Shown here: positions 19,301 to 48,809 of the stretch, piece after piece | Position numbering within the stretch: position 1 is the stretch's first letter | Layout: every line of letters starts with the position of its first letter | Assembly (NCBI GenBank): GCA_028279045.1 | Contig: JANQSZ010000002.1 | Location: forward strand, 1-53,773 | Direction of reading: 5' to 3' | From: Candidatus Nanoarchaeia archaeon | Lineage (GTDB): Archaea > Nanobdellota > Nanobdellia > Woesearchaeales > UBA10216 | DNA: 53,773 nucleotides | Made by a program: the position numbers and the translations under genes | Notes under the pieces: model-generated | Database searches by the model: none | Told to the model about the DNA's origin: nothing | Seen by the model: the letters and a program-made list of their open reading frames with translations, nothing else

Positions 19301-21023
19301 TACCGTACCGTCGAAAACATACGCCATGGCGGTTACCAAACAAAACTACGACTCTTTTGGTAATAGTACGCGAATCGATGGAAAAGTATCGTTTACAATC
19401 TATTTGCAAGCAGATGGAAATGACACCAGTGCACCTTCCATAACCATTCTCTCGCCATCAGACAACGAAAAAGTGGGATCCTCTCCCTCAATCGAATTCA
19501 GAGTTAGCGATGAATCACTGGTTGATTGTACCTTGTTCACAAGTGTTGATGAGAAATGGTGGGTTGAAGAAGATACCAAACCGAACCTACGATCAGATAG
19601 GAATCACTCGTTCACGATCGAAGATGCAGAAGAAGGAGAATACTTCTGGAGAATTGAATGCACTGACGAAGATGGTAGAAGAACCGAATCTCCAACGTTT
19701 TCTTTTGAAGTAGAGACGGGATTGATCCAAGTTACAGCAGATGCAGATGGAAATGTTATCCGAGCTCGAGAACTCATAACGTTGGTTGTTCAAATACAGA
19801 AAGACTTTGAAAACTTGCCACGCTTAGAGAAAGAAGCACTCCAAGACCTGAAGTGGGATGAACTACTCTCTTCGCAGAAAATACAACTGGAACGTGCTTC
19901 AAGAGATTTGAGCAATGTGCAGTGGAGACGGCTCAATGAAACTGATGAACAAGAACTTATTGCTGATATTATTGCACGCATTGATGCAGTAGAAGATCAA
20001 ATACCATCAAGTATCTCGGTGCTTAAATCAAGTGAGTACGTTGCGTACCCGCAACGAGCTGATGTAGAAGCAATAACTTCGGCTTACCTTGAAAGTAAGA
20101 ATGTAAGCCTGGCATCAAGCGCGTTTGATGACCTATTGAGAACAAACACACAATTACAAAGCCATCTAACACCGACGACACGGTACAAACTCGTGCAAGT
20201 TGGCTATCATGGTGGTGTTAACCAAACAATTACTTTGATGAACCGCCAAGTGCGTGTTACAGGCAATGCATCGGACGTCGTTGTTGTAGAACACATACCA
20301 AAATCAATTGCTGACTCTACAGACGAGATTGTTGTTATTGATGACCACGAAATACTCAACCCTGACCCACTAGTTAAGGTTAACCTCACGGTACTCGATG
20401 ACTTTTCGTTTTCCTACTTCATTATTGATGAAATTGCACTCAGTACGATGGAAGATGCACATATTGCACTTCTAAGCGAAGTATTACCGGAAAGTGAAGG
20501 GAACTTCCTTACTGGTTTTGCAGTGTTTGAGGGATTCAACAAATGGCTTTCTCAATCAGGAGGAACACGGCTGTTCATTGAAATCATCATCTTTATTGTG
20601 CTGGCTGTACTCTACTTGCTGTATTCTGTTGGTGTTGTGGACAAAGTAGCGCACAAATTTACCGCGGATAAGGATGTTGAAGCATTGCGGAAACACATCA
20701 AAGATGCCGAAGCACTGCTTGAACAAGGTAAGTATGACGAAGCTGTTCAACGATACAAAGGAATGGCTGAAGAATTCAAGAAGCTGAATGGAGAACAGAG
20801 AAGAGCATTACATGGGGAAATAGTGGATTTAGCGCATGCAATTGATGCATCCCATATTCATCGAAACCTAGATACTGCTGCCAACTTGATCAAAGAAGGG
20901 AAACACGCGCATGCAGGCAAATTATACGCTGAAATCATGGCGCTCTACAAGAGAATCGCACCAAAACACAAAGCAAAAGTGCTGAAGAGGTGCATGGAAC
21001 TGCATAAATTACTCCAGAAATAA
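16341..21023 (+). CDS. Surface protein, 1560 aa: signal peptide, two PKD + carboxypeptidase-regulatory-like units, Cys motif, TM, cytoplasmic TPR-like module (2 copies)
   Basis: ILLLLLIVLVAIPLTFSQ; ATILWDFDDGGKASGTRVSHTYTTPGSYIVSVTVVDGE and NITWDFDNDGDTENTTQEVVHVYSKNGTYTVNLSV; CNDGIKNYHDGQNETGVDCGGPCTAC; TM FIEIIIFIVLAVLYLLYSVGVV. Confidence 0.85.
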   Translation: MINRILLLLLIVLVAIPLTFSQNTTDTHVDPGLGESDENLTGDSVVSDLENFLNEPPPLSENETVEELDDLYIDIDLLNQSGQEFNGSAIVTNVTVGNETNTTVNETETEPVEEPEPIEETVEEPEPVYVPITLTTDKKEYVVGEAVSITMDGSTQSEVNLIIANEEISYAYSYSGENFPATYQFVLTNTPGKYDVTAFIYGDDSQQQVRTFFTVLPREEQALSVSIDSDTQLVEGVPNEFTAIVWGASEEATILWDFDDGGKASGTRVSHTYTTPGSYIVSVTVVDGESIASDTLIAHLTPMLHTVDIIVTTQDNAVFGADVTFGDEKVTTDGHGKASFKVEQGEYELLIEKEGYLSISELKTIENYEVSTYTLRTHVDVTQELTHVSSKTNSLVQNAYIIDDDGNTIDQIDGTEGKVNVVLDLNPQGLALQNVGGEPVVTIHEVEPLSMNWEAIDDVVVTTASIPSEIEDAAAQTLERIQIANVDGFVGQNYYGTVDIPLDTKANLVLYCPNDVDCEEIPSCLTFGGSACYAVFENAIRVYVPHYSTIIVALDNNTANLTIDSPDNETTLDSGEDVWLNGSITETVTLNYSLDGSPTLILGTGTSFSTTLLGSLQNVLANGNHTLLIGIQDAANNSAEVSYEFVVNDSEGPVVNVNGPANNSSLVNQTNVYHIQIQADETATITYELNNGSETINQEGRANSSVIALSLQEGLNTLVFRSEDVQGNNATLEYQYNFTLDDGITATCNDGIKNYHDGQNETGVDCGGPCTACVPFTITTDKSSYLPDQQVAITVISRPNSTVSFNVTGGGASFGATTTTFPSFYIFTSTTNPGTYTITGVSYYWGVPTNLITSFTVNSTETPNPLELELDANDTSVIIGQRILFEADVEGNTTALNITWDFDNDGDTENTTQEVVHVYSKNGTYTVNLSVQQGNFTREETETIEVKKAYNVSFTVRDNETNNPIQNARVYLDDINTNTSSDGKAFLTVPSKTYAMAVTKQNYDSFGNSTRIDGKVSFTIYLQADGNDTSAPSITILSPSDNEKVGSSPSIEFRVSDESLVDCTLFTSVDEKWWVEEDTKPNLRSDRNHSFTIEDAEEGEYFWRIECTDEDGRRTESPTFSFEVETGLIQVTADADGNVIRARELITLVVQIQKDFENLPRLEKEALQDLKWDELLSSQKIQLERASRDLSNVQWRRLNETDEQELIADIIARIDAVEDQIPSSISVLKSSEYVAYPQRADVEAITSAYLESKNVSLASSAFDDLLRTNTQLQSHLTPTTRYKLVQVGYHGGVNQTITLMNRQVRVTGNASDVVVVEHIPKSIADSTDEIVVIDDHEILNPDPLVKVNLTVLDDFSFSYFIIDEIALSTMEDAHIALLSEVLPESEGNFLTGFAVFEGFNKWLSQSGGTRLFIEIIIFIVLAVLYLLYSVGVVDKVAHKFTADKDVEALRKHIKDAEALLEQGKYDEAVQRYKGMAEEFKKLNGEQRRALHGEIVDLAHAIDASHIHRNLDTAANLIKEGKHAHAGKLYAEIMALYKRIAPKHKAKVLKRCMELHKLLQK
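20673..21020 (+). other. Cytoplasmic TPR-like module, two tandem copies (protein region)
   Basis: IKDAEALLEQGKYDEAVQRYKGMAEEFKKL... and LDTAANLIKEGKHAHAGKLYAEIMALYKRIAPKHKAKVLKRCMELHKLLQ. Confidence 0.6.
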
Positions 21024-21105
21024 GTACATTTAAAAAGCAATTTAACAATGAAACACTTAAAAGAGGTGTGTAGGGATTAAGTGGAATGCTAGCGTAAGTG
21101 TACTT

Positions 21106-48318: not shown

Positions 48319-48809
48319 TGGTAGAGATAAAAGACTTGGAAGAACGGCACAAGGCGTTGAAAGAACAAATGAGTAAGATTCGCAAGATGGGTGCAGATGT
48401 CACCATACCAATGTTGTTACTCCATAAGGTACCAACAAAACTAAAACTCGCTGCTATCGACAATAATGCTAAAGAGATCAATACTGTTATTCAACTGCTG
48501 ACTACGGCACAGCAAGAATTGCAGGAGGCAAAACAGAAACAAGAAACAGCAAGCCATTCAACAAAAGTCGAACAACTCTGCATGGCTGTTAAGAATGCTG
48601 TATCCTACGGACATAAAGATGAAGCACTTGAATCCTACAAATTGCTACGGGCAGAATATGATCAATTAAGCGAGAAAGAGAAACCTTTATACACTAAACA
48701 ATGCATTGAATTGTACCAAGGATTAACAAAAGAGGTGAATAATGGCACTGTTCAGCAAGAAGCAGGCGGAGGAGTCCGGTCCGAAGAGCGAACCACCACC
48801 AGCTCCTGA
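48318..48809 (+). CDS. Cytoplasmic protein, 163 aa, carrying the same TPR-like module
   Basis: TAATG overlap start at 48318; VEQLCMAVKNAVSYGHKDEALESYKLLRAEYDQLSEKEKPLYTKQCIELYQGL. Confidence 0.75.
   Translation: MVEIKDLEERHKALKEQMSKIRKMGADVTIPMLLLHKVPTKLKLAAIDNNAKEINTVIQLLTTAQQELQEAKQKQETASHSTKVEQLCMAVKNAVSYGHKDEALESYKLLRAEYDQLSEKEKPLYTKQCIELYQGLTKEVNNGTVQQEAGGGVRSEERTTTSS

Follow-up and report, generated by a model that had tools for sequence, protein, structure and literature searches.

The majority of DPANN archaea are believed to rely on host contact, and little has been settled about the molecules that run it. TPR and MIT domains bind ligand helices, and the MIT domain of Vps4 binds ESCRT-III. 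For the ATPase core found in the locus analysed here, the best solved relative is the archaeal HerA helicase/translocase (PDB 4d2i, E 2e-9), from which the proteins described below differ by a membrane anchor plus an ectodomain, by their position in a surface operon and by their tail modules. Among archaeal envelope systems, Ced/Ted DNA import makes use of CedB/TedB, a membrane-associated VirB4/HerA-like ATPase (PMC9905601) whose likeness to our proteins is limited to the level of the ATPase superfamily. Neither the module nor the gene cassette reported in this work was found described in the literature on DPANN lineages that was searched, and an apparent mention of HerA in PMC9938205 corresponds to the surname Herath.

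The window, that is, the whole stretch of 53,773 nucleotides that was analysed, constitutes an entire contig (C8) of a DPANN genome of 1.016 Mb. Its relevant features are collected in Table 1, and include a module of about 52 residues, here termed M, of which there are four copies spread over three genes: two back to back at the extreme C-terminus of the 1560-aa protein P1, one ending P6 and one in P7. A previous sequence-only reading of this DNA had located four copies in these same ORFs, and all of them were recovered at those places. In the case of P7, the start is most likely the ATG at position 48318, which overlaps the stop codon of P6 (TAATG), rather than the GTG at 48285. ORFs were called mechanically, transmembrane segments (TM) were assigned by hydropathy, and orthology of P1 and P8 was established by BLAST to the window. 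Our main reading, to which we assign a probability of around one half, is that M acts as a three-helix protein-interaction tail, organising the cytoplasmic face of a DPANN surface machine built on a membrane-anchored HerA-type ATPase.

Table 1. Features of the gene cluster and positions of modules M and B in the window.
Feature	Position	Strand	Description
RHH	16076..16348	+	Ribbon-helix-helix (CopG-like) regulator, 90 aa; overlaps P1 start by 8 bp
P1	16341..21023	+	Signal peptide, PKD/carboxypeptidase-regulatory-like ectodomain, one TM near residue 1425, two C-terminal M
M copy 1 of P1 (P1a)	20688-20852	+	From profile and predicted structure
M copy 2 of P1 (P1b)	20859-21020	+	From profile and predicted structure; one continuous helix with copy 1
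P3	38046..40340	+	Surface/TM protein, four cytoplasmic CBS domains
P4	40337..42667	+	Membrane-anchored HerA-type ATPase, intact Walker A and Walker B (DE), C-terminal B tail
B module of P4	42416..42622 (end approximate)	+	DUF5752-like, C-terminal
P5	42693..43520	+	SpoIIM-family membrane protein
P6	43873..48318	+	Second membrane-anchored HerA-type protein, 1481 aa, low-complexity linker, C-terminal M
M of P6	48154-48315	+	From profile search; ends the protein
P7	48318..48809	+	Small soluble putative adaptor, conserved helical core and C-terminal M
M of P7	48570-48734	+	From profile search and P7 model; C-terminal
P8	48742..49854	+	Conserved coiled-coil protein
P9	50042..53773	+	Large secreted protein, open at contig end

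Judging by profile and alignment statistics, M is a real, uncatalogued module, homologous across its four copies. Pairwise shuffle tests gave z values of 10.6 for P1b and P6, 9.2 for P6 and P7 and 7.4 for P1b and P7, with P1a being the weaker copy (z = 2.7-4.5). When HMMs were built leaving out one copy at a time, the omitted copy was always the first match outside the training set (9e-4, 2e-6, 1e-7 and 4e-6, Z=20), while the best shuffled decoy reached 4 bits and nothing else scored above that value. A model based on ten copies identified 136 domains at E<=0.01 in the 1343 ORFs of 100 loci and none at the same threshold in the reversed sequences of those ORFs. The copies are one homologous module, as had been proposed. 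The consensus of 157 copies is roughly LI..A...L..G...EA...Y..I...Y..L....K..VY..I..L...L, and the motif initially suggested was borne out in part (A 93%, Y 87%, Y/F around 100%, L 72%, K/R/Q 99%), its C-x-E-L ending being a minority trait in which C is present in 19% of the copies.

No model in Pfam or NCBIfam covers M. The AF2 prediction for the P1 tail, made with 40 sequences (pLDDT 96.1, pTM 0.85), has helices at residues 3-22, 26-41, 45-79, 83-99 and 102-120 and corresponds to two three-helix bundles, in which the long helix 45-79 is at the same time the third of the first bundle and the first of the second. In the model of P7 (pLDDT 91.5, pTM 0.72) the last helix of the core continues into M. 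Foldseek searches with the P1 tail and P7 models gave no match at E<=0.001, the nearest structures being TPR proteins, MIT domains and the three-helix bundles of spectrin and of the S-layer protein SbsC, which is extracellular. The best match (2ra1, TM 0.52, E 0.03) belongs to this last group, where three-helix units are continued by a shared helix, as in M, although the helices of spectrin are much longer. None of the Pfam families listed for the window tail reaches its cut-off; TPR_12 is the best scoring among TPR models, with 18.8 bits versus a cut-off of 30.1. The TPR-like character attributed to M in the sequence-only reading can be retained for its first helix hairpin, which shares with TPR_12 and TPR_2 the pattern of small and aromatic residues (A, Y, Y/F, L). 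It does not extend further: instead of a superhelix of tandem two-helix repeats, the prediction for M is of three helices per unit, with tandem copies joined through one long helix, and the genuine TPR genes of the same genomes (Pfam TPR_12) sit at other places. Identity as a TPR was rejected on the basis of profile cut-offs, predicted fold and location of the real TPR genes, and according to the models M is a helical-bundle domain without a catalogued profile, TPR-like in the first hairpin only and perhaps MIT-like.

A genome-wide scan with the HerA alignment produced 329 related stretches, and 77 loci were kept. Their titles correspond to DPANN archaea, mainly Woesearchaeota, Pacearchaeota and other Nanoarchaeota, with one each from Diapherotrites and Nanohalarchaeota, while the remaining ones have unspecific archaeal titles, including one labelled Euryarchaeota (L101, SM23-78). 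Locus counts are based on L068-L144 plus the window, with L050 additionally included in the tree; L048 and L138, L049 and L068, L051 and L075, L055 and L128, and L060 and L079 are duplicates of each other. Some loci are cut by contig ends, and a gene missing from a locus does not prove its absence. The recurring order is RHH - P1 with two M - HerA (one or more) - P7 - P8 - giant secreted ORF. P1 with M and HerA are found in the same locus in 52 of 78 cases, and 44 of the 53 P1 proteins have two M, the last one ending at a median of 7 residues from the C-terminus. In most loci a homologue of RHH of 80-100 aa is located directly upstream of P1, overlapping or abutting it (Pfam RHH_1: 21.8 bits versus a cut-off of 20.5 for the L049 homologue, 14.3 bits for the window copy), and at the other end, in 19 of the 27 loci that offer sufficient sequence, P8 is followed by an ORF of at least 800 aa, which almost always has a hydrophobic stretch at its N-terminus. 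The earlier proposal of a three-protein system was correct in that all three proteins carry M, but the system is wider than that. P3 is not a conserved member, apart from a homologue that adjoins HerA in L069. Gene lists and TM counts revealed no conserved multi-TM channel or pilin gene recurring in the cassette save the occasional SpoIIM, and the NCBIfam CedD model scored 35 of 600 bits. SpoIIM-family genes near the HerA operon are also present in L069, L072, L107, L117, L124, L131, L132 and L136, and loci of the Pacearchaeota type have another small conserved protein (..IGSNEQDVVGKIITLWLYNEGYL..) in the place of RHH upstream of P1.

The ATPase cores of P4 and P6 score above the Pfam cut-offs for DUF87 and HerA_C (in P4, 38.2 versus 23.2 bits and 34.6 versus 22 bits, respectively), which places them with the HerA core, while the NCBIfam equivalog for the HerA DNA-repair helicase stays below its cut-off, at 35.6 of 800 bits. 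P4 has an intact Walker A (GSTGGGKT) and Walker B (FDEVH), with the catalytic Glu present. P6, which is 45% identical to P4 over 651 residues, keeps Walker A (GASGSGKT), whereas its Walker B reads YDGMH, with Gly in place of Glu. Gly or Ser at this position was found in 9 of 12 M-tailed HerA proteins and in 0 of the 72 others. In a tree of 84 HerA domains, built without the column of the Walker B Glu, a single change is enough to explain its loss, in a clade of M-tailed HerA that includes P6. Since the Walker B Glu has a known role in P-loop ATPases, we infer by analogy that P6 would be a non-hydrolysing partner. Only some lineages have the two-HerA arrangement, in which a paralogue lacking this Glu adjoins an intact copy. 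Certain other genomes have the HerA domain embedded in single open frames of around 3,000-12,000 codons, and the motor would apparently be tethered there to giant extracellular chains. Examples are the HerA domains at G044:C23:5298-7559, G266:C2:302627-304885 and G127:C4:35292-37229, which lie within stop-to-stop frames of 12283, 8189 and 8055 codons, respectively. Two HerA proteins, at 7151-11419 of L127 and 8870-12760 of L109, have tails that resemble a canonical TPR instead of M, and the M match initially obtained in L109 was excluded from later counts.

At their tails HerA and P7 have one of two modules, M or a further one termed B, which is characterised by the motif ..HVNxxKNDFaxW.. and is, from its sequence, a distant relative of DUF5752 (PF19027), a family it matches weakly (E 0.0017) with at most 18.2 bits against a cut-off of 23. 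B is present on P4 and on nearly every single HerA protein, and 23 loci have it on P7, while M is found on HerA proteins of the P6 type and, in five loci, on P7. These five are among the seven loci with an M-tailed HerA, versus 0 of the other 41 (Fisher 1.2e-5); the M label on HerA requires three changes on the tree, and the concordance between P7 and HerA, with only two independent contrasts, is suggestive only. In three genomes (L134, L141, L143) the core of P7 is fused to the C-terminus of HerA (E <= 4e-14). B was also observed on P7 in L078, L087 and L089, among others, and on some large membrane proteins (L138).

The distribution of M extends beyond this operon. Searches with M models, which covered DPANN relatives, detected it in 36 of 40 related genomes, with up to 14 copies in each, and a stricter model of the P1 tail matched 61 of 191 genomes of the class. 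The genome of the window has at least 11 copies including the four already mentioned; among those outside it, one is in a small protein with signal peptide, FN3 and TM, one is on contig C27, another ends a coiled-coil protein of 1090 aa on contig C17 and at least four belong to a soluble protein on contig C25. Some genomes with M yielded no copy of this HerA, and together with the location of M away from the HerA locus this indicates that M is not dedicated to the HerA machine. A second type of locus, shared by the window's genome and ten relatives, combines a small TM protein with M and, within about 2 kb, a soluble protein that carries B, usually plus a C-terminal M whose match is weak in L067 (3e-4) and 8e-3 in L015. 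Membrane and soluble proteins with M are therefore paired outside the HerA locus as well, which speaks for the module acting as an adaptor. A recurrent 91-aa ORF at these loci is similar to elongation factor 1-beta (EF1_GNE) and unrelated to the RHH gene upstream of P1. ORFs of 600-900 aa with multiple M were seen in many family members, and a soluble protein of L016 (6709-8247, G000:C25), cut by the contig end, has at least four tandem M behind an N-terminal helix-turn-helix-like region.

How M works can be approached through the evidence on its partners. Because the order of elements in the membrane proteins is signal peptide, ectodomain, TM and then ATPase or M, the module is placed in the cytoplasm, and topology thus agrees with the suggestion that it lies on the cytoplasmic face of both membrane proteins and is also carried by a soluble one, an arrangement that recurs in relatives and in the second locus type. 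It had further been suggested that M docks to M, so that the soluble P7 would bridge separate membrane proteins by binding directly to the copies of P1 or P6. Adjacent membrane/soluble pairs in two unrelated types of locus and the presence of M on P7 where HerA has it are in line with this idea, as are, in L138, the tail of P6 (12137-12316) and that of the P7 encoded at 12321-12917, which are 94% identical, something that could be due either to a recent duplication or to gene conversion. However, of the 48 loci where HerA and P7 are both in view, 41 have M on neither, and many of them keep a P1 with two M accompanying proteins that have only B or neither module. Likewise, concerted evolution within loci was considered as a sign of M-M contact and rejected, copies of the same locus being approximately no more alike than those of different loci except in L138, and the predicted M would be a complete bundle on its own, with nothing left to swap. 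As a general rule homotypic docking does not hold, and as the explanation for the module we consider it quite improbable; M-M contact is possible in loci like that of the window, where it would be neither needed nor general.

The opposite possibility, that M is a generic helical spacer or stalk with no specific partner and only loosely similar copies, would account for the low identity between loci (means of 22-28%) and for the fact that the conserved positions are mainly those resembling core packing, but homology holds against decoys, the terminal position and the two copies are maintained in most P1 proteins, and on HerA and P7 the module alternates with B, so that we view a mere spacer as rather improbable too. 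A relationship with MIT domains, through which M would bind short helical motifs in the tails of its partners in the way Vps4 binds ESCRT-III, is an unlikely option in the strict sense, even if M is perhaps MIT-like. Length, a predicted three-helix topology and an adaptor-like setting beside an ATPase are shared with PF04212 and archaeal Vps4/CdvC; the calpain-7:IST1 complex is among the Foldseek matches of the P1 tail, the archaeal Vps4 MIT 2w2u aligns with some part of the P7 model (TM 0.71-0.74 on target, rmsd 2.0), and profile matches include Atg38 (E 0.06) and the SKD1 MIT (E 0.29). Nevertheless, the E values of the 2w2u match are 1.9-3.2, ribosomal S20, spectrin and other three-helix bundles score alike, Pfam MIT gives 11.9 bits on the window tail against a cut-off of 30 and is above it in 0 of 40 genomes, and the neighbouring ATPase is of the HerA type rather than Vps4. 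Under the reading we prefer, a protein-interaction tail, M does not have to bind a second M, and a shared ligand helix, in the style of MIT and TPR domains, would fit the data at least as well.

According to this protein-interaction reading, P4 would form the working ATPase ring, with its intact catalytic residues, and P6 would join that ring as the non-hydrolysing member, while the core of P7 may bind the tail region of HerA. Docking at the M copies of P1, P6 and P7 would recruit the receptor-like P1 and the coiled-coil P8 to the ring, so that P1, the silent HerA (P6) and P7 come together beneath the membrane. The HerA ring would be the motor and the giant proteins the external portion, and what happens at these surface proteins could be linked to an ATP-driven motion that carries a polymer, either DNA or polypeptide, through the membrane or along it. 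Beyond this, and at less than even odds, we tentatively propose that the cassette encodes an undescribed envelope apparatus of DPANN archaea. Its membrane-anchored HerA motor would be connected to a receptor and an adaptor through the interchangeable cytoplasmic modules M and B; in some lineages the motor would be tethered directly to giant extracellular chains thousands of residues long, in others it would have a catalytically silent twin, and the apparatus would move DNA or protein across cell contacts.

M has the look of a plug that would connect components within the cell, and a conserved operon linking giant surface proteins to a membrane-bound HerA motor offers concrete parts to express and test, among them well-delimited candidate interaction modules and a naturally occurring pair of putatively active and silent ATPases. 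With the models of M and B, the system can also be located in the genomes of uncultured organisms. One further observation concerns the giant ORF between P1 and P3 (21106-38049), which contains an S8 subtilase-like stretch (30811-33475) in permuted order, the half with HGHGTHVA and GTSMAAPH preceding the half with DTGTDPGHVDF. An Ig-like domain is interrupted by this piece, the reading frame being kept at each joint, and the cause could be a gene rearrangement or an assembly error across repeats.
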